Shown here one piece after another: positions 7,478 to 51,252 of a stretch of DNA of 62,712 nt (its first letter is position 1; the number at the start of each line of letters is the position of its first letter). A program made the position numbers and the translations under genes. The notes under the pieces were generated by a model. That model ran no database searches, was not told the DNA's origin, and saw nothing but the letters and a program-made list of their open reading frames with translations. Origin of the DNA: Tepidisphaeraceae bacterium (GTDB taxonomy: Bacteria > Planctomycetota > Phycisphaerae > Tepidisphaerales > Tepidisphaeraceae). The stretch is taken from positions 1-62,712 of the forward strand of contig DASYHQ010000020.1 in the NCBI GenBank assembly GCA_035998445.1, written 5' to 3'.

Positions 7478-9541
7478 TCATCCGTTGGGCACTAATTCTA
7501 GTTTCAAGTGGCCGCTCGGTGGCTCCGGCCTGCCCAACGGCCACGGGTCCCCACCGTTCGTCCATGGGCCGGCGACGGTCTCGGGAGGCCGGCAGGTCGC
7601 TCCGGGACCCCATACAGTTTGTGAATAGAGAACGCTGTGGGCGGGAGCCACGGCTTCGCCCAAGGCCAGGGGCAGTTCGACGGCGCCGACCGCGTAACGG
7701 CGGCAATACCCCTCGCCCACTTTCGACCCGTCGTCCTCGAACGCACCGGAATTATAGGACCGGCTTGTGCACGTCATCGCGCCGAGGTGCATCAGCAGCC
7801 GGATCGCGTCGGCGACCGCGCGGCCGCTCGTCCGACACCTGAGCGACCGCAGCATGCCCCGGAAACCGGCCGTCGGTATCGGCGTCCCGGCGTGAATTTG
7901 GCGACCGCCGAACCCGGTAGCCTCCAGTGTGGCCGCCTGGGCCTGCTGACGCGCCCGCACGACCTCGGGGATGGCCCCCGACTGCCACAGGGCCTGGTTC
8001 TTCCGCGCGGTGAGGAACACGACCGCCGTCCCGCGGTACGTCGACGTCCCGAGGTCGGCGGGCCGCACCCCGCGCCCTTTCAACTGCTCGATTACTATCT
8101 TGATGTCCGCCTCCGTGAACCAAGTCGGTGCCCCCAAGCCGTTGGTCGCCTCCAGTTTAGCGCGGCGGACCGCCAGGTACCGTTGGACGTCGAACGCGAC
8201 GACGGCGGACGCTCCGTCGCGGAAGTTCAAGAACCTCACCTCTGCGCGGCGGCCCGCGTTGCGGAGCCGGGCGCGACGCTTGGCGTCACACGGTCGTCCC
8301 TCGCCAACGTGCTCGTCGTACAGCCGCTCGGCGAGTTCCTCGGCGTACCGGCCGCCGGTCGCCCGGAGGACGGCGAACACGATTCCGTTCGCCTGCTGGA
8401 CCTTGTCTCCACTGCGAACCATCTCGGCGATCCGCGGGGTGAAGACGCCGCTCGTCCCGCCCGCCGTTCCGCGACCGGTCCCGAACTCGTCCGCGTCGTC
8501 CAGGGCGGCGAGCCGCCGGATCTCTGCCATCCGTTCACCCCATGCCTGCTGGGACGTACTTCGGGCAGGCACGACGGCTCGGGACTGGCCGCCCGTCAGT
8601 AACTCGGTGAGGTCGCCTACCGTTAATGGAGCTGAGCGTTCAAACCAATCGGCGCACGCTCGGAGGCGGCCGCGTGCGACGGACGAGGGTTCGTCGGGTC
8701 GGTGGCAGCACGGGGCGAGCACCGTCGCGTGGTGGCCGACGCGTGGCGCCGTACGGCACTCGAGTCTTTCGCACCGGTGAAACCCTTCGTCGCCGTACCG
8801 GTGGGCGTAGACGTCATAGTGATTCGCGCGGGTGTCGACGTACGCGTGGTCATTGTCGGCCCGGTAGAGGTATGACAGTTCGGGCGGCACGCGGCGGCCG
8901 TCGGTCGGCCACGGCCGGGTCCGCACCCGTTCGGCGGCGTAGGCGGGGTCGTAAAGGGGGTTATCGACCGTCGCCTCGCGAACGCCAGCGAACGCCTCGA
9001 CGACCGGGCTGTCGCCGAATCCCTGTGTACACCTCGCCACGATGGACTCGCCGATCCCCCGGAGCCACGCCGCTCGCTCGGCGACGCGCAGGTGCGAGGC
9101 GTCGACCAAGAGGTACAAGCTGGCGCCTGTGCTACGCGACGGGCAGACGAACCCGCGCCCGCCGAGCACCTCGCGGTTGACGCGGTGGGCGTACGCGACC
9201 GCGCGGTCGGCGCTCGACGCACGTTTGTCGTCGACGTCGAGGCGGTGGAGCGTGACCGCCCCGCCGTCCCGGCTAACGAGGAGCAACACGCGTCGGCTGG
9301 TGGCGTGGGCCGCGAACGACTTGAACGTGAACGTCCGCGGGAAGCGGCGTCCGTCGCGGACTATGGGACGGGGGTCATCGTACGTGTTCTGCCGGTACGG
9401 GCCGTCGCCGGACGGGGTGGCCTGCCAGATGTCCTCGACGTCCACGATCGCGCGGAGCGCTTTCCACAGGCGACGGAGGTCACGCTGGGTGCCCGGGCCG
9501 AAGACGGGTTGGTCGAGGATCTCGGGAGGCTGCACGAACAC
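7478..9541 (-). CDS. Primase-like protein (divergent AEP motifs), element A
   Basis: 687 residues, paralogous to the 28.7-31.1 kb gene along most of its length. After an N-terminal helical segment (DLRRLWKALRAIVDV) come a strand with acidic pair LDVDDKR (D102, D104) and then PSRSTGASLYLLVD (residues 134-147). This order resembles motif I (DxD) and motif II (S-x-x-G-x-x-H) of archaeo-eukaryotic primases, with Ser141 where the histidine is expected. The middle contains C..C/H residues (FHRCERLECRT, APCCHRP) that could bind zinc. The C-terminal part is shared with B (STYRGTAVVFLTARKNQALW, TSRSYNSGAFEDDGSKVGEGYCRRY). The likely role is replication initiation or priming for the element. The start is GTG at 9541, with no clear ribosome-binding site. 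The family assignment is an inference. Confidence 0.6.
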   Translation of the reverse strand: MFVQPPEILDQPVFGPGTQRDLRRLWKALRAIVDVEDIWQATPSGDGPYRQNTYDDPRPIVRDGRRFPRTFTFKSFAAHATSRRVLLLVSRDGGAVTLHRLDVDDKRASSADRAVAYAHRVNREVLGGRGFVCPSRSTGASLYLLVDASHLRVAERAAWLRGIGESIVARCTQGFGDSPVVEAFAGVREATVDNPLYDPAYAAERVRTRPWPTDGRRVPPELSYLYRADNDHAYVDTRANHYDVYAHRYGDEGFHRCERLECRTAPRVGHHATVLAPCCHRPDEPSSVARGRLRACADWFERSAPLTVGDLTELLTGGQSRAVVPARSTSQQAWGERMAEIRRLAALDDADEFGTGRGTAGGTSGVFTPRIAEMVRSGDKVQQANGIVFAVLRATGGRYAEELAERLYDEHVGEGRPCDAKRRARLRNAGRRAEVRFLNFRDGASAVVAFDVQRYLAVRRAKLEATNGLGAPTWFTEADIKIVIEQLKGRGVRPADLGTSTYRGTAVVFLTARKNQALWQSGAIPEVVRARQQAQAATLEATGFGGRQIHAGTPIPTAGFRGMLRSLRCRTSGRAVADAIRLLMHLGAMTCTSRSYNSGAFEDDGSKVGEGYCRRYAVGAVELPLALGEAVAPAHSVLYSQTVWGPGATCRPPETVAGPWTNGGDPWPLGRPEPPSGHLKLELVPNG

Positions 9542-10237
9542 GTCACGAGACGGCCACCGTAACGGGCAGTGGCCGGCCGTTCCTGAAATTGCACGGTGGA
9601 CCCCATCGTCCGCAGTGCGGGCCTGCTCAGCACCGCAAGTTCACGAATCGCGGCGGCCGGTGACCAGTAGGACTTATCGGCGACCGCTGGTCGGTCGCTT
9701 TACCTGTTAAGCTGAGGGCTATGTGCCTGCCAGAGGCTCAAAGATGCGGCGGCCAGGGAAAACCGCTCCTCCCTTGCAGCGATTCGCCCGTCCTGAGTCA
9801 GGTACAAGGGCGGAACGCCGACAAATGAACTCCGTAACGGAAGAGCGCTAACGAAACGGTTCAGCTTGGAAAGTGGGATTTACTCTCACGTGAGATCGCG
9901 GACCATACGAAGCTCCCTCCGGAACGAGTTGACGAATGCGATCAAACGACCGACAGGCGGGCGCGTCGCGAAGGCTCGCGCCCACAACGGATGCCGATCG
10001 GATGGAAGTCGTTCCATCGCTAGACCTCGGTTCATACGCATCCGGACGACCTCCGCTGCTTCGGTCCTACGGCGTCAGGTCAGCCGACGACCAAGCGGGC
10101 GGTGGCATTAGCGCGTGCCATTCCTTTTTCACGTGCGCCGGGCTGTAGCCCCTTGGTCGTTTCTTCCGATACCAAGTACGCCAAGCGGGCGATTCATGTT
10201 GTATCCAGCCGCTAAATTCTGCAAATTGGAACTTCCC
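9542..10237. other. Gene-free 0.7 kb between primase gene and kinase locus
   Basis: No open frame here has a credible start site or composition. I see no strong hairpin or repeat. It must hold the promoter of the leftward primase gene and of the rightward small gene at 10238, but neither is obvious. Confidence 0.4.
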
Positions 10238-10483
10238 ATGCCTTCCATCCTGCCATCGCCTAACGTTTGGGATGAAGTTACCGGGGCAATAGCCATCGTT
10301 TCAAGCCTATCGCCCGTGCAGCGAGCCTACTGGTCAAGTCGGCTGACCGACCAACGCGAGCGGTTGACTGCGGCCCTAAAAGCGATGGATCCCACAGAGC
10401 GCGGCGCCGTCGAATACGTGCTCGACCAGCATCTTCACGCCGTAGTCAGCTCGTTCTTGCAAGCGGTGGCGGAGAAGCGGTAG
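10238..10483 (+). CDS. Small helical protein upstream of kinase-HD
   Basis: 81 residues (MPSILPSPNVWDEVTGAIAI...). The ATG at 10238 is chosen because the sequence upstream of it is compositionally unlike protein; an earlier in-frame ATG exists at 10196. The product is almost wholly helical, with amphipathic segments SPVQRAYWSSRLTDQRERL and ERGAVEYVLDQHLHAVVSSF. No motif is recognised. It ends 76 bp before the kinase-HD start, in the same direction, so the two may be functionally paired even though the kinase gene seems to have its own promoter. Gene reality is moderately supported. Confidence 0.5.
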   Translation: MPSILPSPNVWDEVTGAIAIVSSLSPVQRAYWSSRLTDQRERLTAALKAMDPTERGAVEYVLDQHLHAVVSSFLQAVAEKR

Positions 10484-10547
10484 AAAAACCGCGTTGGGGC
10501 GGCATATTTTGGCGAACGTCTCGGTCGTCCCCGCGCGCCGCGACTGC

Positions 10548-10560
10548 TAGAATTGTGGGA
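10548..10560 (+). promoter_or_regulatory. Extended -10 promoter, predicted leaderless start of kinase-HD
   Basis: TG-C-TAGAAT (TGn at 10545-10547, hexamer 10548-10553) ends exactly 6 nt before the ATG at 10560, which places the expected transcription start on the A of the start codon. No good -35 is visible, as is normal for extended -10 promoters, and no Shine-Dalgarno sequence fits. Confidence 0.6.
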
Positions 10561-12884
10561 TGGCTAAACGCCCCGCTCGCCGGCAAACTTCGACGCCTAC
10601 GCTTCCTCTTTCTGGGAGCTTCCCTCACTATCTCTCCGCGATCGCCAGGGATCTGAGTCGCCGCTACGCGTTCGGGGGTGAGGCCGGGCGAGGAAAGACG
10701 GGCGCGGCTTATAAAATCGTCGACGTGCACACGGATCGCCCTTTCTGCCTCAAAACTTGTTCGCCCGACGTGACGGACGCCGCCGGGCGGGAGCAAGTGC
10801 GTGAGACGCTCTCCACCGAAGTGAAAATCCTGCGGCCGTTGAGCCATCGCTGCCTGCCGGCCATTTACGATGCCCAACTCAAAGCCGAGTTGCCTTATTA
10901 CGTTTGCACGTACCACCCCGGCGTGACGTTCAAACGATTCAGGCTCGAAGGTCGGAAGCTTCCACTGCGTGAGTCGACGTCCGCGATCTGGTCGCTCTTG
11001 GACGTGATGAAGTACCTCCACAATCAGGATCGGCAGCACTGTGACCTTCATTCCGAGAACGTCATGATCAGCCCTGAGGTGTTCCGGGACGGCATTATGG
11101 TGATCGACTTCTCTTCCGGCCACCGCGGTAGTGACAGCTCGCCCGACACGTTCAACCGGGGTAATTTCGCATTCAAGCCAGTTTCCGACCAGCCGCAGGC
11201 GGGACGAAGGGTCACCCGCAAGGTGACGCAGTTCGAGCAGTACGATTTCGCGGGCCTCGGCATGCTGCTGGCTCAGATGAAGGACTCCTTCTTCGCCGGC
11301 GCATCGCGCCAATCTCAGTCCGCCTACGTCGACTTTTGCGGAGCCCTCCGAAATGGCGATATCAACACATGGGACGCAATTGAGGACCGCTTTCTGACGG
11401 TGCTAGACCCGTATCGTATATGGACGGGCAATGCCGATCTCTTTACCTCCGCCGACGGCGGTCCACAGGCAATTTCGCTGCCGGCCGGCGTCGGCGTGGC
11501 CGTGGGCGTGGCCCCGCTGGCCGTTGTAAACACGTCCGCGTTCCAGCGGCTTCGGGGTATTCGCCAACTGTCGTTTTGCGAGTGGTTCTTCCCGGGCGCG
11601 AGCCACACGCGGTTCGAACACTCCCTCGGTGTGTTCGGCCGGGCGAAGTCGGCAATCGAATCGCTCGTGCACGACCGCGCCTTCCGCGACCTGCGTAGCG
11701 TCGCCCAGATCCGCGGCTTTCTACTTGCAGCGCTCGTTCACGACGTCGGTCATTACCCGTTCGGCCACCTCGTGGAACAGTACGCGGCCAGCCGCCTGTG
11801 GAAGTCCGCCGCCGCGAAGGAGGCCGCGTCTCACAGCCGCCACTCGCTGTGGCTTATGGATAACGACGAGGAATTACGGACGGCAATCGACGAGCACTGG
11901 GGACCGGAAGCGAGACTGAACGCCCGGCGGACGTTGACCAAGCAGGTGCCCGTTCTTTCCGAACTCCTCGACGGCCCGATCGACATCGATAAGGTGGACT
12001 ATCTCGCCCGCGACGCGGTCCACTGCGGCGTGCCGTTCGGCGCCGGCCTCGACGTCTCCGGACTGCACCGCGCCCTACGCGTGGTCCACGGCGGCCACCG
12101 ACTCGGGATTGAGTCCGCTGGGGTGCCGGCGGCCGAGGGCCTAATGGTGTTGCAAGATCAGATGTTGTCGTCCGTTTACTGGCACCCCACGATCCGCGGC
12201 CTCATATGCATGTTTCATGGCGTGTTGGCCAATTTGGTTAGCAAGGACGAAGCGCTGTTCAACGGGCTGGTCGAGGAACTGAAGCGGTGTACGAGTGAGG
12301 ACGATGCGATCCGAAGCGTGTTACGCCCCCGTGTGGACATGCTGCCGAAAAAGAAACGCGAATCGGTCCAACGGCTCCTCAGCCCGCTGGTCCGCCTCAA
12401 ATTTTCGGATATCTACGTCCCAACTGTCACGTACGCGCCGACGGATCCCCCGCCGGAGCACCTGCCGTCGGACAACGCGTACCGGTCGATCGTCAAGGAT
12501 TTCACGCATACCGAGTCCACCGCTGCCGAGCCGGTTAACTGGCATAACGTACGTCGACTCCGCACGGCCTACATCGCCGCGCTGATCGAGATGGGCCAGC
12601 CCGCTGACGACCTCCACGTCGTCATCGACGTCCCGTATGGCAAGTCGTCGCGGCAGAACTTGATCGTGTACAGTGACCGGACCGGGGTCGAGAAAGACAT
12701 CACGGACATCTCCCATCTAAAGGAGACAATCTTCACCATGCCCGCGACGTTTCTCTCTCCCGTCCGCGTCTATCTCGCCCCGGAAATGCACGCCCCGGTG
12801 TCCGAGCGAATCTCTCGATTGCGCCAGCGCGCGGAGGAAATCTTCTACGAACGACGCCCGCTAAACGATCACGCCGACGAGTAG
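10560..12884 (+). CDS. Protein kinase-HD phosphohydrolase fusion protein
   Basis: 774 residues. Residues about 35-290 form a eukaryotic-like protein kinase: a Gly-rich region FGGEAGRGKTGAAYKI, the VAIK-type lysine in FCLKTC, the catalytic loop HCDLHSENVMI (Asp161 and Asn166 region) and a DFG-equivalent VIDFSSG (Asp183). Residues about 310-620 are an HD phosphohydrolase of the COG1078/SAMHD1-dGTPase type: FQRLRGIRQLSF, HTRFEHSLGVFG (His near 350), ALVHDVGHYPFGH (HD pair near 394) and DIDKVDYLARDAVHCG (Asp near 478). The last 150 residues are of unknown fold. Separate family knowledge says SAMHD1-like enzymes hydrolyse dNTPs and dGTPases can protect against phage. The fused kinase could sense infection or regulate the HD domain. 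It is cytoplasmic, cargo of element A, and absent from B. Confidence 0.88.
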   Translation: MAKRPARRQTSTPTLPLSGSFPHYLSAIARDLSRRYAFGGEAGRGKTGAAYKIVDVHTDRPFCLKTCSPDVTDAAGREQVRETLSTEVKILRPLSHRCLPAIYDAQLKAELPYYVCTYHPGVTFKRFRLEGRKLPLRESTSAIWSLLDVMKYLHNQDRQHCDLHSENVMISPEVFRDGIMVIDFSSGHRGSDSSPDTFNRGNFAFKPVSDQPQAGRRVTRKVTQFEQYDFAGLGMLLAQMKDSFFAGASRQSQSAYVDFCGALRNGDINTWDAIEDRFLTVLDPYRIWTGNADLFTSADGGPQAISLPAGVGVAVGVAPLAVVNTSAFQRLRGIRQLSFCEWFFPGASHTRFEHSLGVFGRAKSAIESLVHDRAFRDLRSVAQIRGFLLAALVHDVGHYPFGHLVEQYAASRLWKSAAAKEAASHSRHSLWLMDNDEELRTAIDEHWGPEARLNARRTLTKQVPVLSELLDGPIDIDKVDYLARDAVHCGVPFGAGLDVSGLHRALRVVHGGHRLGIESAGVPAAEGLMVLQDQMLSSVYWHPTIRGLICMFHGVLANLVSKDEALFNGLVEELKRCTSEDDAIRSVLRPRVDMLPKKKRESVQRLLSPLVRLKFSDIYVPTVTYAPTDPPPEHLPSDNAYRSIVKDFTHTESTAAEPVNWHNVRRLRTAYIAALIEMGQPADDLHVVIDVPYGKSSRQNLIVYSDRTGVEKDITDISHLKETIFTMPATFLSPVRVYLAPEMHAPVSERISRLRQRAEEIFYERRPLNDHADE

Positions 12885-13322
12885 CGTGTTGATGACGTGG
12901 TCGAGTGGCGCAGCCGGGGGACATGGACCGTCCATGACTACGGTCACGCCGCGAACGTGGTCGTCCGGGACCAATTCCCGGCCGGGCGAAACGTAAGCCT
13001 TAGCAAGGTTGACTCTTAGTTGTAGCAAGGCACCGGCAACGCTTAAGTGAAAACATGTAACGTACGTTCCCCGGCTCTACCCATCGTCACGCCATGACGG
13101 CCCTGCTAAATCGGTGCGCTATTCCTCGGCACGAACCGTCGAATTGGCGACGAGGTCGTGCCTTTCTGCCCGCACCCGTATCACGCCCCACGGACGTAAA
13201 AGATCCACGTCCATCGTGAGGTGCCCCTACCCCCACCTGCCCGAGTCCGTGCGAGATGTGCTGTGCGGTGCAACCTCAGGAATGCACCCCGCCCGTTGCC
13301 AGCGACAAAGGTCATCTAGAGA

Positions 13323-13360
13323 ACCGGCAGGGGCATCGTTTGCCCCACGACCCTGCCGGT
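13323..13360. terminator. Bidirectional terminator-like hairpin between convergent genes
   Basis: ACCGGCAGGG (13323-13332) pairs with CCCTGCCGGT (13351-13360), and the inner bases GGGCA / TGCCC extend the stem. It lies between the 3' ends of the kinase-HD gene and gene X. The rest of 12885-13413 shows no gene. Confidence 0.65.
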
Positions 13361-13413
13361 GCTAACTGTCTCGAACAATCGTGATTTACCGCCAGCAATA
13401 GACGTGTCGATTC

Positions 13414-14700
13414 CTACGCAAGCACTTCAGGGCCAACGTAGGTGTTGGTTTCGATAGCCTTTGCCAATTTCGGCGCTTCGTGAATCAGATGGAGCACCAT
13501 GCCGTCTCCCCATTCCTGAGCGAGCATTCTCAACTGCTCGGTCGCTTCATTGATCGTGTCGCAAACTTCCGTTTCGTGGCCGCCCGTCTCGGGGTCTGGC
13601 TGGTTCGCCACGTCGCACTGCACATGCGAGATGATTCGCCCATCCGCGGTCTCGCCGAGGTATCCCCGCTTGTAAGCGATCGTCTTCCGATGAGCCATCG
13701 GCATCCGGACCACGCCGAGGAGCACTGGCTCACGCGCGCCCTTGCCGTTGTCCGCATAGAGGACCATTCCCTCGTGCACGTCCGCCGGTCTCAAGTTGGC
13801 GAACTCTTCATCCGACGCTGCCCACCAGTCTATCGGACGTCCAGAATGAGTGGCTTTGCTGCCGCGTCGTTCGCCGCACTTGCGGAACGCCTCTCCTGTT
13901 ATTCGGGCGAGATGACGCTCGTCTCGCCGCGGCCACCGCTCGCCGTCACCGGCGATCGTGTCGCGAACGACCATCGCCCAGCAATATTTCGCAGCGTCTC
14001 CTACCGGCGTGTGCGCCACAGCAACCCCGTCCGCCACGAGCCCGCGCTTGTAAAGTTCGGTGGACAACCGATGCAGCGCCACCCATACGATGTTCTCCAT
14101 ACCCCATTGCAGGTCGCGACCTCGGTCGTGAGTTACTCCCCCGAACAATGCCAACGTGCAGCCGGGAGCCGTTAGGCCGGCCAGCGATGGGACATCTGCG
14201 CGCCTCCTCGCGAGCCGGCCCGCATCGCTCACGCTCAGCTGCACGTCGGTCCGCTGCTCGTGGCCAAGCATTGCGAGTTCCGCGACCGCCGCGCGGATCG
14301 AATCGGTTTTCGCCGTGGCGGACACCGCGAAACGGACCGCCGGCGACGACGTTTTTGCCGACGTGACGTCCTCGGCAATTGCAACCTGCATGGCAAGCTG
14401 CTTGGCGACGTCATCGCCTTGCCCGAGAAATCCCCGCATCGTCAACCCGCCCAAAAGCGCGGCAAGCGAATCCGCGATCATCACTCCGAGTTCGGTTCCG
14501 ATCCGCGCGAGGTACCGGCCGTCGACGGCCTTTCCTAACACGACCGGAAGATGAAACGCCGACTCATCGGCGGACCAGTAAACGGCCGCAAGCTCTCGCT
14601 CGACCGTGATGACCTCCTCTTTCGACGCGGCGTTGAACGGGGCGCCCAGCGATGACGCGACTAGGCGTTCGCCGGGGAAAAATTGATCGGAAGTGCTCAT
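13414..14700 (-). CDS. Element core protein X, copy A (unknown function)
   Basis: 428 residues, the same length as its paralog at 38507-39793, and alignable along its whole length. The ATG at 14700 follows GGAGAATTGAC. No known domain is recognised. Conserved blocks shared by both copies include ITVERELAAVYWSAD, GKAVDGRYLARI, MVVRDT followed later by DERHLAR, MPMAHRK(T/A)IAYKRGYLGETADG, and a C-terminal GDGM.LHLIHEAPKLA..IET.TYVGPEV. The composition is that of a soluble cytoplasmic protein. Its promoter is shared in design with gene XII, which suggests co-regulation. Conservation in both elements despite different cargo suggests a core element function, not cargo. Confidence 0.75.
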   Translation of the reverse strand: MSTSDQFFPGERLVASSLGAPFNAASKEEVITVERELAAVYWSADESAFHLPVVLGKAVDGRYLARIGTELGVMIADSLAALLGGLTMRGFLGQGDDVAKQLAMQVAIAEDVTSAKTSSPAVRFAVSATAKTDSIRAAVAELAMLGHEQRTDVQLSVSDAGRLARRRADVPSLAGLTAPGCTLALFGGVTHDRGRDLQWGMENIVWVALHRLSTELYKRGLVADGVAVAHTPVGDAAKYCWAMVVRDTIAGDGERWPRRDERHLARITGEAFRKCGERRGSKATHSGRPIDWWAASDEEFANLRPADVHEGMVLYADNGKGAREPVLLGVVRMPMAHRKTIAYKRGYLGETADGRIISHVQCDVANQPDPETGGHETEVCDTINEATEQLRMLAQEWGDGMVLHLIHEAPKLAKAIETNTYVGPEVLA

Positions 14701-14761
14701 GTCAATTCTCCGAAAAAGGGCTCACGTCACCGCGCGACTTGAACCGAACGATGTTCTAAGA

Positions 14762-14780
14762 CGCAACCAACTCAGTTGCG
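14762..14780 (-). promoter_or_regulatory. Conserved hairpin in the 5' leader of gene X (copy A)
   Basis: CGCAAC, a 7-nt loop, then GTTGCG. The same 6-bp stem occurs upstream of the B copy of gene X (39853-39870). Its conservation among diverged flanking bases suggests an RNA structure in the roughly 200-nt leader, or an operator. Confidence 0.5.
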
Positions 14781-14909
14781 GCCGCGGCACGTGAGGCGGC
14801 GCGCGGTGCCGGACGTACGTGCTGGCCGATCGGGGGCGTCGTGCGACCACACGTCCAATGGCGTAACCAAATCCGTCAGATGCCATACCCTGAACCAAAC
14901 GGCCGGGGT

Positions 14910-14953
14910 ATCATCTCCATGGGATGAAGGTTGTCAGTGTTACCTAGTGATAC
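14910..14953 (-). promoter_or_regulatory. Promoter of gene X, copy A, with tandem heptamer activator site
   Basis: Read on the minus strand: heptamer GTATCAC (14953-14947), spacer TAG, heptamer GTAACAC (14943-14937), then TGACA completing a -35 CTGACA (14937-14932), a 16-bp spacer and a -10 GATGAT (14915-14910). The 26 bp from 14930 to 14955 are identical to 40020-40045 upstream of the other gene X copy, in a background that has otherwise diverged. Distance to the gene X start is 232 bp, against 229 bp in B. An activator bound to the direct heptamers next to the -35 is the simplest model. Confidence 0.72.
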
Positions 14954-15199
14954 TTTCGCGGTAACTGGCAACAGGGCTAGTCGCGGCCCGCGGGGCGCGC
15001 TTCGGTCCTGCCGTATGTTGGTGCAACGCCTTTCGATGACGCAGCCGCACGTTGAATTAGTCGCTCAACATCTTGTTTGGCAGAGCGTGAATCCATTAGG
15101 CCCCGCGAGAGGTTCGGCTGACATCGACGGCGATCGTTACCAGTAGATCTATCCGCGTCGACACGACGGTTTCCCGAGTCTGACGCCGCAGTTATCGTC

Positions 15200-16117
15200 A
15201 TGGCGATGCGTAGACAGAGCACACCCAAGACAATGAATCTCGAATTACCAGCGCGCTCGCGCAGAGCCAACTCGCCCATCGGCATGGATCAGTTCGTCGA
15301 GGCCGCGCATTGGGCGGACGCCACGTTGGCCCAAGTCGACGAATACCTGAGAGACGTCTCGGGCGGCATCGTAGACCGCTTCGGGCGGCCCACCGAGGGC
15401 GAGCTTCGCGTTGATTTCGATCGCGTTTGGGAACGCTGGGAGGAGATGGTACTCGCCGATTATGCGGAGGCAGACCGCAGGCTGCTCGCGGTCGATGCGG
15501 CACGACCTGCGGCATATGAACATATCGTCACTAGCGCTGAATGGGTCATCGCCAAGCGCGGTGACGCACCGATCCTATTGGCTGACCGAGCCTACATCAG
15601 CGCCCTCGCCTTTTGCTCGCGAGTCGTGAGTTTCGTGTGGTCGCGACGCCCCATTTGGCGGTGGACCATCACAAGGAACAAACAGGAACGGCTGATCGAT
15701 ACGCCCGTGACTCTATCCGAGCAACGCGGAGTCTCGTTCCTGAGTCGGCTCTGCAACGGGGGCGTGACCCCGTCCGGTCTTCGCATAATGCGCCGGCGGG
15801 TCACCTCAGAAGCCGTCGCCACTTTAGCCGCATGGCCAAATCTTTATGGAACTCCGGTCCCTCAAGAGCACGGCGTGTACGGCGCAATATGTCGCGTGCT
15901 CCGAGAACGAGGTCCCCTCCACACCGAACCCTTGCTCAGCGCCGCGGGTTACACGAACGCGAAGCCGGTACTCGCAGCCCTCGTTGACATGGGATTGCTA
16001 GTCAGCGACCGGAAACGCGGATATTCGCTCCCGCCGCGTCCGAACGTGCCAGGCCTCTTCTTGCCCACGATTAATTGGCCACAACTCGACAAACATCCGG
16101 AGTCGCAAGGAAAGTAA
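15200..16117 (+). CDS. Element core protein XI, copy A, C-terminal winged-helix-like
   Basis: 305 residues from the ATG at 15200. An alternative ATG at 15284 (MDQFVEAAHWAD) matches the start of the B paralog (MDQKKITSVAGWAD) and may be the true one; neither has a clear ribosome-binding site. The N-terminal half is helical (ADATLAQVDEYLRDVSGGIV). The C-terminal block EHGVYGAICRVLRERGPLHT...NAKPVLAALVDMGLL.....GY.LP has the helix-helix-helix-hairpin pattern of a winged-helix DNA-binding domain and is the best conserved part. It could be the regulator of the X/XII promoters, but this is inference. It is followed 660 bp later by gene XII. Confidence 0.68.
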   Translation: MAMRRQSTPKTMNLELPARSRRANSPIGMDQFVEAAHWADATLAQVDEYLRDVSGGIVDRFGRPTEGELRVDFDRVWERWEEMVLADYAEADRRLLAVDAARPAAYEHIVTSAEWVIAKRGDAPILLADRAYISALAFCSRVVSFVWSRRPIWRWTITRNKQERLIDTPVTLSEQRGVSFLSRLCNGGVTPSGLRIMRRRVTSEAVATLAAWPNLYGTPVPQEHGVYGAICRVLRERGPLHTEPLLSAAGYTNAKPVLAALVDMGLLVSDRKRGYSLPPRPNVPGLFLPTINWPQLDKHPESQGK

Positions 16118-16609
16118 CATCAAAAATCCATAACGACGTTTACCGTTGATAACATACCCGGTATCGAATGGCATGCCGCGCGCCACTAGTCCCCTCGGCC
16201 GCCACGCATGCGGACGCAACAGGTCTACTGGAGCTACTAAATGGTCTTTGTTGAGGAAGACGTTGTCATGGCACGATAGGCGAGCGGCTCGAACATCTTC
16301 ACTTCCAGCGAACCAGGGTGGGTCCCCCACATGCGCGAGGGGGCTTACGGTAGCTCATTGAAACTCTTGCAAGCGACGTCGCGTGCCCGCAGCCTGCCGG
16401 ATGTCGAGCGTGCCGTAGATTATGCCAACACAAATCCCCGAGACATCGGACGGTAGTTCGAAGTCTTGAGGAAGAACTTAGCGCCAGAGCGAGCCCGATG
16501 ATGGTGCGGCAATTGCCTCGAGTTTGCAGTGAGCCTTAGGGTCGCGGCGAATTTCAATTCGCTAGAAGATAGCCAATCGACGACGCCCGATGTTATTGGC
16601 GCTAGCTAA

Positions 16610-16631
16610 CTGTCACTCAGTGTCACTGACA
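16610..16631 (+). promoter_or_regulatory. Promoter of gene XII, copy A, tandem heptamers
   Basis: CTGTCAC (16610-16616), spacer TCA, GTGTCAC (16620-16626), then TGACA (16627-16631) as part of a -35. The layout equals that of gene X and of the B copy of XII. The -35 lies 147 bp before the XII start, against 145 bp in B. The -10 is weak (CCATCT or CATCTT), as expected of an activator-dependent promoter. The remainder of 16118-16777 shows no gene. Confidence 0.65.
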
Positions 16632-16777
16632 CGGCCGACCGCTTAGTCCATCTTGCTCTCCGTCGATCGCGGGTTCAATGCTTAGGGCTTGGATCGGACA
16701 TCGCGAAGCCGAGCGTCGGCCTTCGTCCGTCAAAGATCCGCAAACGCCGTGACCCCGCTCGTCGAAGGAGAATCGAC

Positions 16778-17947
16778 ATGAATAAGAAACTAACAGTGGA
16801 CGGCAATTCGACTACCTCACGCCCGGACGGGTCCCACGGCGTCAACCAAGTCGGCCCGCAGTCGTTAGAGCCGACCGCGGAAGTGCCGCACGGTGCGTCG
16901 TCCGCCAGTGCTAGCGAAGAACGCCGGCGACCCGCTGCGGCGGCCGACGGGCCGGCCTGCGCGTGCTGTCATTCCGTGGGTTCGCCGCCATATGAGCTTG
17001 GGGCAGTCAACATTTTCAACCAGTTCGACTTCCCGGTCGAACCGCGGTCGGAATATTGCACGGCTAGGATGTCGCTCGACCAAGATTACCTGGAGGTCGA
17101 CGACGACCCCGAACACCCCGTGCAGGTCACGCGTTCGGGTGACCCGACGCTCACGCCATTCTGGTTCGGTTTTCCACGCCTCTGCGTCGGTCGCTTGGTA
17201 GACGGCCGGGCCTATGTCGCCCGACTGCGCGACCGCGCGAGTCTTCCCGAAAGCTGCCGCGTCTACGCGTCCCTCGAGCGTCTGATGACACATCTGTGGC
17301 GCGGGCCGAACAGCCATCCGGGACTCTTTTTCATCTTGGGCAAACTGGACTTCGTTCGCTTAGATGTTGCGGCGGTCCGACGCGTGGACCACCGGGCCCC
17401 CGAGCCACCCGGAGAGGCACAATCCCCGTCGGAACGGGACTTGATGGCAGAGAAAAGAACGGTCACCGCGTTCGTGAGCCAAGAGGTGACAAGGCCGGGC
17501 AAAGCCGACCGGGATGATGTCCTCCGAGGCTACTATTGGCCCACAGGCTGGAATGCGGAGGACGCCAAGAAGTTGCCAGCACCGCCGAAGGGATTGAAAT
17601 ACCTTCACGCCTGGTCGCACGACCCCCACGTGCACATGGAGGTGCGTGAACGCAACGGGCAACAGCGTGTGATCCACGTGAAGCCGGCCGACGCTTGGGT
17701 CGAATTTGACCGGTTCGCGGAGACGGTCATCGACCGCCTCACCATGGGCCGGACCGCGGACGGTCGGTTCTACTATTGCGAGGACAACGGCGACACATAC
17801 TGGTGCTGCAGGATTTACCCGGACTTTGCCGACATGGTTTTGGACATGTGGCACCGGGCAGTCCAAGACCCGACGCCCCTAACACTCCTTTACAAGATGG
17901 GGTTCCTCAGCATGACGATTCCGGCCGACGACGAACGTTATCCATAA
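16778..17947 (+). CDS. Element core protein XII, copy A (unknown function)
   Basis: 389 residues. The ATG at 16778 is preceded by GAAGGAGAATCGAC. An unstructured N-terminus of about 55 residues leads to a CACC pair (the B copy has CPVC). A conserved body follows: LCVGRLVDGRAYVARLR, CRVYASLERLMTHLWRGPNSHPGL, LVRLDL-like strand, PTGWNAEDAKKLPAPPKGLKYL and DMWHRAVQDPTPLTLLYKMGFL. Aromatic and charged content suggests a soluble globular protein. No family is recognised. It ends at a strong hairpin and has the same promoter type as gene X, so the X and XII products probably act together. Confidence 0.75.
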   Translation: MNKKLTVDGNSTTSRPDGSHGVNQVGPQSLEPTAEVPHGASSASASEERRRPAAAADGPACACCHSVGSPPYELGAVNIFNQFDFPVEPRSEYCTARMSLDQDYLEVDDDPEHPVQVTRSGDPTLTPFWFGFPRLCVGRLVDGRAYVARLRDRASLPESCRVYASLERLMTHLWRGPNSHPGLFFILGKLDFVRLDVAAVRRVDHRAPEPPGEAQSPSERDLMAEKRTVTAFVSQEVTRPGKADRDDVLRGYYWPTGWNAEDAKKLPAPPKGLKYLHAWSHDPHVHMEVRERNGQQRVIHVKPADAWVEFDRFAETVIDRLTMGRTADGRFYYCEDNGDTYWCCRIYPDFADMVLDMWHRAVQDPTPLTLLYKMGFLSMTIPADDERYP

Positions 17948-17976
17948 CTGGCTCGACGCTCTCGCCCTGCCGCGAG

Positions 17977-18011
17977 CGTGCCACGGAGGCATAAGCCGCC
18001 TCCGTGGCACG
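17977..18011 (+). terminator. Strong hairpin after gene XII (A)
   Basis: 14-bp perfect arms (CGTGCCACGGAGGC / GCCTCCGTGGCACG) around the 7-nt loop ATAAGCC, 30 bp after the stop. An equivalent hairpin with different sequence follows XII in element B. The next 480 bp to 18496 hold no gene I can support. Confidence 0.75.
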
Positions 18012-18496
18012 TGTCAGTCGCAGGCCCGGGTACGGCAAGGACGACATCACATCGGACGCTATTTTTCGCCGAGTACGCTGTCCCTACTACCGCCGCGCGG
18101 CCACGGTCTAGGACGGACGGTGGTAGCGGTCGCTCGGACCGAAGTCGCCAAACGTGCAAACGATTGGCGTTGCAGAGATCGAGAGCGGGACCGCAGGCGT
18201 CGACCGGTCGGCGCAGCGAATGTCCGGTACAAGGGCACCGGTCGACCTCGGGATGGAACGCGGAATAGTCCTGCCGCTGATGTCGTCGCAAGCCTGGAGA
18301 GACCGGATGGCACGATAGGTGTAACGCCCACATCGAGGAAGTGATCGAAGCATTCGGGGTGGCCCCAGCGGATGCAAGGACGAGCCGATAATTCGCCGGT
18401 GATCCGGTGGACGTCGGTTGCAAGATGGATATGGTATTCATGTGATCCGCCTAAAAGCTCTGCCGGCTCACAGTCGCGGCGGAGTTCTAGAATTTG

Positions 18497-19072
18497 TCAC
18501 GCATTGAGTTGCGCCTGGACGCGATTCTTTTGAGCAACGAGATGCGCCCGGTGCACGTGAAGTCGCGGAAGATCATCATCCGATGCTACTGTAATGAGTT
18601 CATCGACTTCGCTAATCGCCTTCGGATATGTCATCCAAGGCGACATATCCTGAAGGCCGAGCAATCGCTTTGCAATTGTCTGATCGATCGCCTTTCGCCG
18701 GGCGGGCGTAAGCGCGTCTGGCTGCTCGAAGTGAATCAGGCGTTGTCCAAGACGCTTAAGCCGGTCATCCGAGAACCTAGTCACGATCGAGGGGCGATTC
18801 TCCCACGACTCGGCGTGAAACTGCTCCATCAATGGAGTGTCTTCATTGGGTATGAATCGTTCGTACAACTGCTCCTCGACATGGTCCGAGGCTTCTTTCG
18901 GTGCCTGCGCTGCGGCACACGCATCGACGAGGCGCTTGCACAAGGTCTGGTTGTTCTTCAGCAACTCGGCGCGACGATTCAGTTCGTCACTGCCGAGTTC
19001 CATGCCTGCCGCATCTGCCGGCGCATCATACTCCGGCATGAGGATCGGATCACCTGCTGGCGATGACCCAAC
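18497..19072 (-). pseudogene. C-terminal remnant of an exonuclease I (SbcB)-like protein
   Basis: About 190 codons without a proper start. The sequence ELNRRAELLKNNQTLCKRLV, HVEEQLYERFIPNEDTPLME and DDRLKRLGQRLIHFEQPDAL follows the order of the C-terminal region of exodeoxyribonuclease I (N..LLK.NP, QLY.GF...D...M, RL..LL.RY.ar..P..L). The DEDD nuclease domain that should precede it is absent. It lies in the disrupted region between gene XII and the truncated integrase, so it is likely debris from a lost cargo gene. Confidence 0.5.
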
Positions 19073-19089
19073 GATGTCGATGCTCGTCG

Positions 19090-19300
19090 AAGTAGCTCAG
19101 CAAAGCTGACATCTTTCGCACTCTGCTGCTTCGGCTCGTCGAAGACCAGCAGGCCGGGATGGTTGGTCGCCATCACTCTCGCGACCTCTAAGAGACCGTG
19201 TAAATATGCCCAAATTGATCGAATCAGGTCGCTTGCGGAAATGCTAGCCTGAAGGTCAAAACCATCATGTTCTGGTCGGTAGGTGTCTGGCGATAGGGTA
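19090..19300 (-). pseudogene. Remnant of an ATPase gene (Walker B region)
   Basis: A frame without a start contains ARVMATNHPGLLVFDEPKQQ and SAKDVSFAELLRRAS. The LLVFDEP string is a Walker B plus D-loop of an SMC/ABC-type ATPase, with flanking helices as in AAA proteins of conflict systems. Both ends are broken: upstream a stop lies near 19305, and downstream the frame shifts into the exonuclease-like remnant. Only about 65 residues are left. Confidence 0.45.
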
Positions 19301-19321
19301 ATTGAAGCTTACGAATCCTCA

Positions 19322-19507
19322 TCAGTTCCCCCCGGTGGGCCTTAAGATCTGAGTAACTGCCTGCTCTGTCAGCTTTTTACCGATCCGCGAAATGAACTGC
19401 TTCTCGGACATGAAGATTCCGCCCATGCCGGCAAGATCGTCCGCGAGGCTGATGACGGCCCAGAACCCACTCTGGGTGGGAAACTCGCGTGTGCGGTCAT
19501 CGGCCAT
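19322..19507 (-). CDS. Small ORF after the truncated integrase
   Basis: 61 residues (MADDRTREFPTQSGFWAVIS...), whose ATG lies one base after the stop of the integrase fragment. No family is recognised. It may be the start of a gene cut by the deletion that removed the integrase C-terminus, or a chance frame. Confidence 0.3.
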   Translation of the reverse strand: MADDRTREFPTQSGFWAVISLADDLAGMGGIFMSEKQFISRIGKKLTEQAVTQILRPTGGN

Positions 19508-19508
19508 G

Positions 19509-19880
19509 TCACGGGGCGGTCCGGGCCCATGCCAGGTAAGCGTCGACCAACCGCGCGACGGTCATCTGCTCCGGTGAACGCTTGAGATCACCTGGCGTTC
19601 GCCCCGTCGCCAGCCACTGCAAGACGGTCCGATGATACTTTGTAAAACTGTCGGGCGAGTTAGCCCGCCCGAGGTAGACCATGCGACCGTCGAGGCGAAC
19701 GTACCCCAGTCGCTTCGCTTTGTGGACGCGATAGGCCGGAACGGTCGGGCCGGTGTCCGGTACATCGCCCGGGTGGCGCCGACTTCGAACGCGTACATCC
19801 AGCGTTTGCCACTTGGCCCCGTCAGCATCGTTTCCGTGCGAAACGGGCTCACCGCCCCAAGTCCGACTTTGTTGCAACAT
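19509..19880 (-). pseudogene. Truncated tyrosine recombinase, element A
   Basis: 123 residues matching only the N-terminal arm-binding part of the integrase at 51730-53097: VPAYRVHKAKRLGYVRLDGR, MVYLGRANSPDS and LVDAYLAWAR are shared nearly word for word. The core-binding and catalytic domains (R, H-x-x-R, Y) are absent because the frame stops at 19509 in unrelated sequence. The start ATG at 19880 follows GAGGTGAGCAG. It is the last gene of the RadA operon, 27 bp after the Gam-like gene. Loss of catalysis means A would need another integrase (for example from B) to move. Confidence 0.8.
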
Positions 19881-19907
19881 CTGCTCACCTCGAAAACGCA
19901 GGAACAA

Positions 19908-20537
19908 CTACTTGACGTACAACCGGTCCGCGGGGGAAACGACCGCGACGCCGTCGGGGACTTCACCGTGTTCCGAAAGGTGACGTCCGAGCGCGTCGCG
20001 GGACACCTGCGTGCGGACCCGCGCGTCCTCGGGCCGAGCACGTTGCCAGACCGCCAACGCCCGTGCCGCGTCGCCCTCGGCCTCGACCGTGACGCGGAGG
20101 GCCTCCGGGAGCGACCGCTCGCACCACCTGACGACGGACAGCTCGTCGACCACGTCGATCCGCCCGACCGAGCGGCGAAGGCCGACAGTCCCGGCCGGCA
20201 GGGGCACGGAACGGGCGCGCCCCCCCCGGCGCGCTAATTCCTGCCGGAGCCATCCCTCGAGCTCCGCCCCGAACCGTCGCAACAGCCATTGCTCGTCATG
20301 TTGCGCACGGCGCAGCTCCTGGTCGGCCGAGCCGCGCACCCGCTCCGCGTAAGACCTGCATTCGACGACCTTGCGAACGACCCACGAAGCAGTCCGCTCG
20401 TCGGTCACACGGAAGCCGTTTTCGATTTCGGCGGCGATGCCGCGGTCTTCCTGTGGTGCGTCGGCCATAGTGTCGTCGGGCGACGCAAGGTAGGTCTTAT
20501 TGTGGCGGCAGCTTGAGGTGGCTGTCTCCAATTTCAT
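19908..20537 (-). CDS. Mu Gam-like host-nuclease-inhibitor family protein, copy A
   Basis: 209 residues. An unstructured acidic N-terminus leads to a long helix (TASWVVRKVVECRSYAERVRG...ELRRAQHDEQWLLRRFGAEL). The beta-hairpin signature LPAGTVGLRRSVGRIDVVDE follows, then VRWCERSLPEALRV. This coiled-coil plus GT-x-x-x-R hairpin is the pattern of bacteriophage Mu Gam, which binds linear duplex ends and blocks exonucleases such as RecBCD. The ATG at 20537 overlaps the stop of the preceding gene (ATGA). The paralog in B is 247 residues. The role in the element would be protection of linear DNA ends during replication or integration. Confidence 0.72.
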   Translation of the reverse strand: MKLETATSSCRHNKTYLASPDDTMADAPQEDRGIAAEIENGFRVTDERTASWVVRKVVECRSYAERVRGSADQELRRAQHDEQWLLRRFGAELEGWLRQELARRGGRARSVPLPAGTVGLRRSVGRIDVVDELSVVRWCERSLPEALRVTVEAEGDAARALAVWQRARPEDARVRTQVSRDALGRHLSEHGEVPDGVAVVSPADRLYVK

Positions 20538-20800
20538 TTGGATCTCCTTAAGGCTTCGATACAGATCAGCGTCAGCCCCATAGCGGCGAGATGAATCGCG
20601 CGGACGTCCGCGTCCCTCGGACAGGCACGGGCCAGCCGGGCGTAGAGGTCTGACCCTCGTTCCATTAGGTAGGACGCTAGTTCCGGTTCGCAGATCTCGA
20701 GCATCCTCATCGACGTGCGGGTCCCGGCGCGCCTCACGCTTCGTTCGGCGGAGCGGATGGCACGGTAATCAATCGACCCGTTTGACATCGTCAACACCAT
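20534..20800 (-). CDS. Small conserved operon protein v, copy A
   Basis: 88 residues (an ATG at 20788 is an alternative). Shared with the B copy are ASYLMERG(S/T).LY..(I/L)..ACPR.ADVR.I followed by LTL(I)C.EA(L/V)RRS. It is all-helical and basic at both ends. No family is recognised. It overlaps the Gam-like gene by 4 nt, implying coupled translation and stoichiometric production with Gam. Confidence 0.7.
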   Translation of the reverse strand: MVLTMSNGSIDYRAIRSAERSVRRAGTRTSMRMLEICEPELASYLMERGSDLYARLARACPRDADVRAIHLAAMGLTLICIEALRRSK

Positions 20801-20865
20801 CCCGGCCGCCCCCTAAGGTCAAATCTACGCCTTCTCAACGTTGCGAGCGTTTGCACGCCACTCGC

Positions 20866-21237
20866 CTAGGAGTTGGCCGGCTGGGTGCCGGTGCCGCCTT
20901 CACCGCGCCGACGCGCTTCTCGTCGTGCCAACGCGGGGTCCAACCGCGAGAGCATGGTGCGCATCTCCGTCTCGCGCCAGAGCCGATAGTGGGCGATCCG
21001 GTACGCCTCCAACGCGAAGAGCACCGCTTCCCAGACGGTTCGGTACATTGCGTCGCTCATTTCGGACGACACGCCTTCGATGCCGCCGAAGCCCGCGCCA
21101 GCAATTTCGGTGACCGAGAAGTAAAGGTGCGGTTCGGTCGCCCGGGCCTGCCGGACGCCCAGGGGGTGCACGTGCTGCGACAGGTAAGCGCGCGCGGCGT
21201 CGACGATCGGGGTGGTGATCAGGTGTTGGTCATTCAT
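20866..21237 (-). CDS. Small conserved operon protein iv, copy A
   Basis: 123 residues, paralogous to 54222-54644. Conserved positions include PI(V/I)DAARA.L and RATEPHLYFSV. A long helix then follows: WEAVLFALEAYRIAHYRLWR with ETE(M/L)...L.RLDP. The tail is hydrophilic and varies between copies. No family is recognised. It sits 69 bp after the RadA-like gene and 65 bp before gene v. Confidence 0.7.
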   Translation of the reverse strand: MNDQHLITTPIVDAARAYLSQHVHPLGVRQARATEPHLYFSVTEIAGAGFGGIEGVSSEMSDAMYRTVWEAVLFALEAYRIAHYRLWRETEMRTMLSRLDPALARREARRRGEGGTGTQPANS

Positions 21238-21306
21238 TTCGGGAGACTCCGTTCATAAAGTTTAAAGAAGGTTCACGGTTGCCGCGGACGGTGGTGACCA
21301 CCTAGG

Positions 21307-22632
21307 TCAGCTGGCAATAGAAAGTCGGTCGACGTCGAGGTCGGGCCAAGCCCGCCCTACCGCGGCCCGCAGGGCACTGACGCCGTACAAGTCACAGCCG
21401 CAGTTCCACGGGAGGAACCTGGCGTCGCCAGCCGGCAGCACCATCCGACGGCCGCGCAATTCGTTGGCGCGCATCGCGGCGTTCGCGGCGGAACAGAACG
21501 CGGTGGGGAGCGGCATGAGTTGGCCGGCGAGGTCGAGTTCTCCGACGACGATGAGGTCCGTCGGCAACTCTCTACACAGGCAAGCGCCCGCGATCGCCAA
21601 GGCGAGCGGCAGGTGGAGCAGGTCGGATCCCATCGTCGTAGAACCGGCATGCATGACGGTGGGCCGGCACAGGACCGAAAGGTCCAGATCGCGTAAAACG
21701 TCGTCCCACTCCAATGCAGTTGCTAGGCAACGCGCGGCGTGCCGGACCTCGTCCCGGGCAATGCCGCGGCACACGTTGACGCGCCCCACCTCCGCTGCCG
21801 GCGAATCGGACGGACGTGACGATAGCGTCGCGGCGGCCTGGACCTGGACGATGCCGTGACCCGGAAGCCACGCGTTCACCGACACGATTTGAGTCGCGGC
21901 GTGCCGTGCCCGATGGAGACGCGTCGTGACGGGATCGATCGTTAGCGGGACCCGACGAAGGACGGCGGGTCCGAACCGATTCTTCGGGACGGTCAGCGTC
22001 CGGCGCCCGCCGCGGCGGTCGAGGTGGACGACGACGTCCACGGCGTGTTCGAGCGTGCGCGGCCCCCGGGCGAGGTTTTGCTTGGTGACGTGGCCGACGA
22101 GGATCGTCGCGATGCCCGCCACCTGCAGGGACCTAGCCGCGTCGACCGCCGCCCGGCAGGCGGCCGCGTCGGTCCCCGCGGTCGCCCCGCCGCCCTGAAT
22201 GCTGTCGAGGACGACCAGCTTCACGTCGCGGTGCGGGGCATTCGCGCCGAGGACCAACCGCTGCACGGCGACGGTGAGATGCCGGGGTTCGAGCTCGATC
22301 GCCTCCATCGCGACCCGCTTTAAGGCGCGGTTGGCGTCTGCGTCACTGAAGCCGCCAGCCATGCGTCGAGCGCGCTCGCTTACGCGCTCGACCGACTCCT
22401 CGCTAAGTAGCAAAAGGGATTTGGATCCGCTGAGAGCTTGATCCAACGCCGACTGGAGCGCGAAGCCAGACTTCCGGCTGCCAGGTAGGCCAATGAGAAG
22501 CGAGATTCCCGCGGAATTGGATTGTCTGTACACGTTCGCGGTCGCGTACAGGGTGGGACTAAGCGACCAGCATTGCCTGGGCCCAGAGTCGAACTGGTCG
22601 GATCGGTTGTCACGCAGGAATCTCTTGGCCAT
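21307..22632 (-). CDS. RadA/Sms-like ATPase without zinc finger, copy A
   Basis: 441 residues. The RecA-type core has a Walker A variant GLPGSRKSG (near residue 50), a Walker B region VKLVVLDSIQ, GHVTKQNLARGPRTLEHAVD and the RadA hallmark KNRFGP. The C-terminal 140 residues match the Lon-like domain of RadA (LPLALAIAGACLCRELPTDL then GELDLAGQLMPLP). Known RadA proteins start with a four-cysteine zinc finger; none is present. Chromosomal RadA is a branch-migration helicase loaded on recombination intermediates, so an element-encoded form could drive recombination-dependent replication. It heads the operon iv-v-Gam-integrase. The start codon lies at the predicted transcription start. Confidence 0.85.
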   Translation of the reverse strand: MAKRFLRDNRSDQFDSGPRQCWSLSPTLYATANVYRQSNSAGISLLIGLPGSRKSGFALQSALDQALSGSKSLLLLSEESVERVSERARRMAGGFSDADANRALKRVAMEAIELEPRHLTVAVQRLVLGANAPHRDVKLVVLDSIQGGGATAGTDAAACRAAVDAARSLQVAGIATILVGHVTKQNLARGPRTLEHAVDVVVHLDRRGGRRTLTVPKNRFGPAVLRRVPLTIDPVTTRLHRARHAATQIVSVNAWLPGHGIVQVQAAATLSSRPSDSPAAEVGRVNVCRGIARDEVRHAARCLATALEWDDVLRDLDLSVLCRPTVMHAGSTTMGSDLLHLPLALAIAGACLCRELPTDLIVVGELDLAGQLMPLPTAFCSAANAAMRANELRGRRMVLPAGDARFLPWNCGCDLYGVSALRAAVGRAWPDLDVDRLSIAS

Positions 22633-22638
22633 GCCTAC

Positions 22639-22667
22639 AGTATGAAGAATAAAATCATGATAGTCAA
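22639..22667 (-). promoter_or_regulatory. RadA-operon promoter (A), predicted leaderless
   Basis: On the minus strand: -35 TTGACT (22667-22662), 17-bp spacer, -10 CATACT (22644-22639). Exactly 6 nt separate the -10 from the ATG at 22632. The 13 bases GTCAAGTTTAAAA (plus strand, 22663-22675) recur at 56070-56082 in element B. Confidence 0.7.
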
Positions 22668-22682
22668 GTTTAAAACTATTAC

Positions 22683-22711
22683 TTGATGCAGATGGCCTTC
22701 ACGCCGATATT
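22683..22711 (+). promoter_or_regulatory. RHH gene promoter (A), predicted leaderless
   Basis: TTGATG (22683-22688), 17-bp spacer, GATATT (22706-22711), then exactly 6 nt to the ATG at 22718. No Shine-Dalgarno sequence precedes the gene. Confidence 0.6.
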
Positions 22712-22717
22712 TTAGTT

Positions 22718-23002
22718 ATGGCCCGGACCAAGCAGAGCGTGAACTTTGCCGTACAGCGTCACCTTGCAGACCGATTCCGCGATTCGACCAAGGAGTATTA
22801 CGGGAAACTCGGCCTTTGTTTTTCCGCATGCATGCTGATGTGGTTGGAGGCTGATCCAGCTGTACAGGCCGAGTACCTCAAGCGGGTGTTCGGTGCTGAA
22901 ATTGACGAGGAGATGGCGGCGGTAATCGAGCAGGCCAAAGCCGAACAATTGAGGCGGATCAAGACTCGCGAAGAGTCGCCCAAGTCGAGAAAAGGCTCCT
23001 AG
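22718..23002 (+). CDS. Ribbon-helix-helix-like regulator, copy A
   Basis: 94 residues. The N-terminus KQSVNFAVQRHLADRFRDST has the strand-then-helix pattern of RHH (CopG/Arc) DNA-binding proteins. The central block GKLGLCFSACMLMWLEADP is nearly identical in the B copy although other residues have diverged. A charged C-terminal helix (EEMAAVIEQAKAEQLRRIK) follows. It is divergent from the RadA operon with 85 bp between start codons, the classical position of an operon autoregulator. Targets may be the shared GTCAAGTTTAAAA block or the TGTAC-N-GTACA palindrome after the gene; this is inference. Confidence 0.72.
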   Translation: MARTKQSVNFAVQRHLADRFRDSTKEYYGKLGLCFSACMLMWLEADPAVQAEYLKRVFGAEIDEEMAAVIEQAKAEQLRRIKTREESPKSRKGS

Positions 23003-48976: not shown

Positions 48977-48999
48977 TGCTTTGCCAGCGGTGGCGGGGA

Positions 49000-50928: not shown

Positions 50929-51252
50929 GCCTTCTCCCGTCGCCATCCTTAGCGCAGAGACCGAATCCAGCCGCCAGTGCGCTGGCACTGTGGTTGTGTA
51001 GGTCGCGACGCATGTCAAGGGGATGGCGTGGGTAGACGGGAAGCAGCTGCCGCTGGACAGCGGCAGATTCAGCCCTCGAAAGCGTACATCCTTGCAGCCG
51101 TCGAGGATCGTCGTGGCACCCGTCCGTCCCTAGACAGGATAGCTTTCACAATTTATCGGACATTACGGTTGGCGAGCTTGAGCGTACCTAGATTGCGTAC
51201 GGCTGCTGCGGGACGGCACAGCTAGAGTGGCCGGGGGAAGTCACGAGGGTGC

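Follow-up and report, generated by a model that had tools for sequence, protein, structure and literature searches.

A protein kinase fused to an EF1143/SAMHD1-type HD domain in a Tepidisphaeraceae bacterium: a rare and patchily distributed protein with a possible role in defence

Introduction

HD dNTPases are toxic effectors that need restraint. In animals, SAMHD1 is controlled by phosphorylation; the kinases involved act in trans, and the PDB contains SAMHD1 with the phosphomimetic T592 as well as forms of it phosphorylated in vitro. In Clover, which consists of the dGTPase CloA and the nucleotidyltransferase CloB, the answer is a nucleotide signal, i.e. an HD dNTPase defence effector comes with built-in control (PMC12265719). 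The antiphage dGTPase of Tal et al. 2022 (NF041026; dGTPase in PADLOC) also belongs to the HD superfamily and has no kinase, and the same is true for EF1143 (the HD dNTPase of Enterococcus faecalis; 2o6i, 3irh, 4lrl), 2hek and BT4208 (2q14).

Here, we describe a gene in a 62,712-nucleotide stretch of DNA from a Tepidisphaeraceae bacterium (the window) that joins a protein kinase and an HD domain in one chain. Both parts are of known kinds; the fusion itself was not found in PADLOC-DB, NCBIfam, Pfam or open-access papers, in agreement with the first-pass annotation of this DNA, which knew of no described system with this architecture. In its fold, the HD half resembles EF1143, 2hek and BT4208 from end to end (Z 29-33) and shares with them the metal ligands and a QRxR stretch, while these proteins differ in having Arg at the position of Q532 of the fusion and a Glu directly after the position of H425 (HE). 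With SAMHD1, it shares the fold and the catalytic His/Asp set, and the phosphorylated forms of SAMHD1 offer a parallel to the fused kinase; unlike SAMHD1, the fusion has no SAM domain and has Gln in place of R366. As in Clover, an HD-superfamily nucleotide-depleting enzyme would be combined with dedicated regulation. However, the regulator would be a fused kinase rather than a separate nucleotidyltransferase that makes p3diT; no CloB-type nucleotidyltransferase was found at the fusion loci examined, and the flanking genes in the window have no confident Pfam match. With the PD-T4-6, MAD6 and Stk2-type defence kinases, the fusion has the protein kinase domain in common. If the kinase in the same chain is the regulator, it would provide a different and very direct restraint that mirrors the control of SAMHD1 by phosphorylation. 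The fusion may be a one-protein antiviral switch, and this rare pairing recurs in unrelated bacteria.

Results and discussion

One chain joins a complete kinase fold to a complete HD dNTPase fold

The frame of the fusion gene (Table 1) is open throughout and its codon-position GC (0.64/0.45/0.77) is coding-like. Pfam identifies Pkinase at residues 38-194 (8.2e-16), HD at residues 351-453 (9.3e-5) and, with a score below Pfam's own cut-off, HD_assoc_2 at residues 512-565 (6.5e-4). Hits of the C-terminal half among PDB sequences are 2hek, EF1143 (2o6i), BT4208 (2q14) and SAMHD1; those of the N-terminal part are DAP kinases and, when a profile is used, also PknB. None of the matches listed is a PDB chain with both domains.

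An AlphaFold2 model based on a 19-row alignment has a mean pLDDT of 77, with values of ~90 in the cores of both domains and low values at residues 187-224 and 614-659. Using VIA-align 2, residues 291-733 superimpose on EF1143 with dGTP and dATP (3irh_C) with a Z of 32.6 over 335 residues (rmsd 3.5), and residues 297-770 on SAMHD1 with a Z of ~28. The kinase domain modelled alone has a pLDDT of 88; compared with complete protein kinases, the kinase half reaches a best Z of 22.6 over 233 residues (rmsd 2.7) and its two-lobe fold is complete. Structure prediction, which the first-pass annotation had proposed as a check on both domains, together with Pfam and the homologues thus bears out its reading of a kinase and an HD domain in a single chain, and the models confirm that the predicted folds of both, the second of the EF1143/SAMHD1 type, are complete.

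Two full-length relatives were identified, one by a genome scan in a Nitrosomonadales metagenome-assembled genome (L003) and one by a class survey in another genome of the family to which the window belongs (L004 in G086). The three proteins are 42-45% identical from end to end, and we refer to them as subfamily I. Because these homologues share the domain order over the whole chain, the fusion is no assembly or frame artefact. A possible 81-aa ORF lies just 5' of the fusion; it has no relatives that we could find and is absent at the loci of the other fusions (L003, L004 and L055). Since the larger genes on either side run in the opposite direction, the fusion is a lone gene or, at most, forms a pair with this ORF.

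Table 1. Features of the window referred to in the text
Feature	Position	Strand	Basis or remark
Kinase-HD fusion gene (P0001), 774 aa	10560-12884	+	ORF, Pfam, homologues
Protein kinase domain, residues ~28-289	10641-11426	+	Pfam, alignment, structure model
EF1143/SAMHD1-type HD phosphohydrolase domain, residues ~291-769	11430-12866	+	Alignment, structure model
Q532 codon (CAA), position of SAMHD1 R366	12153-12155	+	Alignment
Possible 81-aa ORF	10238-10483	+	
Element A, holds the fusion (~7.5-23.0 kb)	7478-23002	.	Extent from genes common with element B
Sister element B (~28.7-56.4 kb)	28688-56422	.	Many genes common with A
Integrase fragment of A	19509-19907	-	Homologous to residues 22-131 of B's recombinase; catalytic half missing
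Tyrosine recombinase of B, full, 455 aa	51730-53097		
Shared primase-position gene, family unknown	A 7478-9541, B 28688-31078		
Unrelated 549-aa gene of B beside the primase-position gene	31839-33488		
R-M-like cargo of B: type I-like specificity subunit and N6 methyltransferase with HSDR_N_2 N-terminus	47594-51018	-	

The HD active site is conserved but for Q532 at the position of SAMHD1 R366 and a missing Glu

In an alignment of 25 HD proteins, R351, H354, H394, D395, H403, H425, D477, D480, Y481 and R484 are invariant. Among these are the four metal ligands of the H...HD...D set (H354, H394, D395 and D477), which are present in 25/25. The window protein also keeps H398, E406, K478 and D485 as well as the EF1143-like stretch N324/Q329/R330/R332. 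H403 and E406 correspond to the catalytic His and its partner acid (H215/D218 in SAMHD1; HxxE in dGTPases), an equivalence set by motif and alignment.

One exception is Q532. It faces the Arg of the SRYxM motif in gap-free alignments to 2hek and EF1143, and it precedes Y540 by eight residues, the spacing of R366 and Y374 in SAMHD1. All three subfamily I fusions have Gln here, while 20 of the other 22 aligned HD proteins have Arg, one Leu and one Lys. The three also lack the Glu after H425 (position 426) that is present in all other aligned HD proteins. In SAMHD1, R366 touches the substrate and R366A lowers kcat ~300-fold (PMC11074143); R366H lowers activity unevenly between dNTPs and in this way shifts the relative activities (PMC8843919). 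The claim in the first-pass annotation that all expected metal ligands are present is correct; what does not follow from it, given Q532, is an ordinary dNTPase. Because of Q532 and the loss of the Glu, hydrolysis of dNTPs by this domain appears plausible but not assured, and because the substrate-contacting Arg is replaced we refer to the HD half as dNTPase-fold rather than as a dNTPase.

The change at Q532 also keeps alive two alternatives in which the HD domain does something else, and it provides a sharp handle on the question whether this domain acts as a sensor or as an enzyme, be it on dNTPs or on a new substrate. In one of them, the protein acts in defence or conflict and Q532 reflects a substrate other than canonical dNTPs, e.g. 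a modified nucleotide, an NTP or a nucleotide second messenger. A replacement of Arg that is fixed in three proteins as diverged as these would fit with this idea, as would the altered dNTP preference of SAMHD1 R366H. However, the fold is closest to that of dNTPases and a diverged fusion, P0003 (see below), retains Arg; a change of substrate is a proposal that we regard as unlikely.

The kinase half keeps its catalytic residues and lacks an APE motif

K65, E87, H160/D162/N167 (HCDLHSEN) and D183 (DFS) are invariant across the three close fusions. An APE motif is absent from the window kinase in an alignment with 12 kinases, which is weak in this region, and the activation segment (residues 187-224) is poorly ordered in the model; that of P0003 is more ordinary. 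In other words, the catalytic residues are intact, as the first-pass annotation had it, in a kinase that has no APE motif. Because the catalytic residues of both the kinase and the HD domain are invariant at this level of divergence, we argue that both activities are under selection. The matches of the kinase to PD-T4-6 and mad6 in PADLOC (at most 66 bits) were rejected as a sign of defence; four ordinary kinase-domain controls score 230-330 bits, i.e. four to five times higher, and the matches are therefore non-specific.

That protein kinases can serve on their own as defence effectors counts in favor of the main rival to the model that we propose below. Here, the roles are reversed: The HD domain would mainly be a nucleotide sensor that binds dNTPs or another nucleotide but hardly hydrolyses them, and the kinase a toxic or signalling effector that phosphorylates host or phage proteins and is triggered by a change in the nucleotide pool during infection. 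The changes at positions 532 and 426 in all three subfamily I proteins would then reflect altered catalysis with the binding residues kept, including those of the conserved Q/R stretch, which lie along the allosteric site in relatives of SAMHD1 and EF1143. By contrast, invariant metal ligands and a retained H403/E406 pair (E406 is absent in P0003) would be unusual in a pure sensor, P0003 keeps the Arg at 532, and the missing APE motif speaks against an ordinary trans-acting kinase. We consider reversed roles rather unlikely.

The fusion is rare, patchy and outside the family's chromosomal HD lineage

Besides the subfamily I proteins, we found one diverged fusion in the window's family. This protein, P0003 (locus L055, genome G080), has 932 aa and matches Pkinase (1.1e-25) and HD (3.4e-6); it has Gln for H398. 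Kinase-HD fusions are present in 3/26 genomes of the family (two of them subfamily I) and in four genomes overall, while most of the 26 carry an unfused chromosomal HD protein of ~430 aa. No further fusion was found among the sampled genomes of the class (397) and the phylum (392), none beyond the source genome among 300 genomes of the order of the Nitrosomonadales protein and 398 of its phylum (Pseudomonadota), and none in 396 genomes with P0003 as the query; these scans scored few candidates per genome, so that diverged copies may be missed. An 866-aa frame in genome G482 was rejected as a further fusion because its upstream part is spurious, a GC-rich frame that contains no domain. Thus, the kinase-HD fusion is rare and patchy.

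Phages, plasmids and viral contigs gave solely HD-alone or kinase-alone matches. Three HD proteins on viral contigs (L110:5257-7374, L111:5911-7851 and L121:3014-5518, all +) are unusually long (705, 646 and 834 aa versus the usual 420-510) and may be other HD fusions; no kinase was found in them.

In a tree of the HD domains, subfamily I is a single clade (100/100), and a strongly supported branch (99/97) separates this clade from the unfused HD proteins encoded on the family's chromosomes. Within the clade, the Nitrosomonadales protein groups with L004 (98/70). Because L004 pairs with this protein rather than with the window copy from its own family, the tree suggests horizontal transfer of the fusion between distant lineages. 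With respect to P0003, the trees are compatible with one fusion event or with two independent ones: it is on a long branch in the HD tree and its placement is without resolution; in the kinase tree, a single fusion clade is not rejected (p-AU 0.33).

Neighbours of the relatives

The relatives lie in chromosomal settings and outside elements of the type present in the window. The Nitrosomonadales fusion is located between nifH/DRAT and rnf-like genes, directly downstream of a TcmP and DUF5131 pair (L003:6064-7800, +). It starts 137 bp after the DUF5131 gene, which is the PADLOC candidate PDC-M30B/M41B (377 bits); the TcmP gene is the candidate PDC-M41A and a gene for a TIR protein is close by. 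L004 adjoins dxs and a DUF4062 gene. The start of P0003 is overlapped from upstream by a gene for an M78 peptidase (L055:4056-5174, -) that is CapP-like (48 bits), and the two could possibly form a two-gene unit. No recognised defence system is present beside the fusion in the window or at G086. Overall, the gene content around the relatives is suggestive of defence, short of proof.

A model for the fusion in defence

Based on these data, we tentatively suggest that the fusion is a horizontally spread defence protein in which the kinase controls, in cis, an HD domain that depletes dNTPs, a model to which we give somewhat less than an even chance. In this model, the C-terminal HD domain, once active, would hydrolyse dNTPs or nucleotides closely related to them, so that a phage or element entering the cell would run short of precursors for its DNA. 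The kinase at the N-terminus would hold the HD domain off or turn it on. It would probably do so by phosphorylating the chain to which it is fused, either in its own activation segment or in the disordered insert at ~614-659, and in the oligomeric state adopted by this HD family. The observed basis for the model is the fusion itself, the two folds, the conserved catalytic and metal residues and the patchy distribution over four genomes; from these we infer a dNTP substrate, control by the kinase in cis, an infection trigger and an antiviral function.

In favor of the model, the HD half fits over its full length on nucleotide-bound EF1143 and on SAMHD1 and keeps metal, catalytic and EF1143-like residues; the complete kinase fold retains its K/E/HxD/N/D set in the diverged members; and the HD tree sets the fusions apart from the chromosomal HD proteins. 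The DUF5131, TcmP and TIR genes in Nitrosomonadales, the CapP-like peptidase at G080 and the precedent of Clover point in the same direction. Against it, Q532 occupies the position of a residue that SAMHD1 can hardly lose and E426 is gone in 3/3; no phage-defence family matches specifically, with the antiphage dGTPase model NF041026 giving 17.6 bits against a cut-off of 400, in addition to the kinase scores above; two of the fusions have no recognised defence system alongside; and activity is predicted.

A bolder variant, which we consider doubtful, is a nucleotide-sensing kinase switch made of one protein. In this variant, the HD domain with its altered pocket would read the dNTP pool and control the kinase in cis, or be controlled by it. 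Such a switch would represent a so far undescribed class of immune protein that arose in, or diversified into, at least two subfamilies.

The fusion lies in one of two related elements

The chromosomal flanks of the window encode a glyoxalase, a PEP-CTERM protein and sulfatases. Between them are elements A and B; the bounds of A are the span of the genes common with B rather than mapped ends. The first-pass annotation considered the fusion to be cargo of a mobile element, at a site where the sister element has a different cargo gene. The fusion does lie in element A; however, because only the N-terminal part of its integrase remains, A is not obviously mobile now, and the other fusions are found elsewhere. 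Similarly, B does have an unrelated gene beside the primase-position gene, but the other shared genes are ordered differently in the two elements. In the 26 family genomes, there are no copies of the primase-position gene beyond the two of this contig.

The elements bear on two non-immune explanations. In the first, the fusion would have an accessory role in regulating nucleotide pools or the replication of the element itself, and the kinase would tie dNTP level to the state of growth. Both elements carry genes of DNA metabolism (Mu Gam-like, AAA_25/KaiC and the primase-position gene), and the common chromosomal HD relatives may be housekeeping proteins. We nevertheless find this explanation quite unlikely: the other fusions are outside such elements, their distribution is sporadic and transfer appears to have connected distant lineages. 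In the second, the fusion no longer functions and is carried along by an element that is itself broken. The truncated integrase would agree with decay, but the full-length open frame with coding-like codon bias and the intact catalytic residues make it very improbable.

Two further observations concern these elements. Element B contains an IS110-family transposase (41721-42767, +). In element A, positions 18497-19039 (-) encode a 180-aa Exonuc_X-T_C fragment (2.9e-14) without the N-terminal exonuclease part, and this fragment matches RTasSbcB of PADLOC (2.8e-23), a DRT-associated SbcB-like protein.
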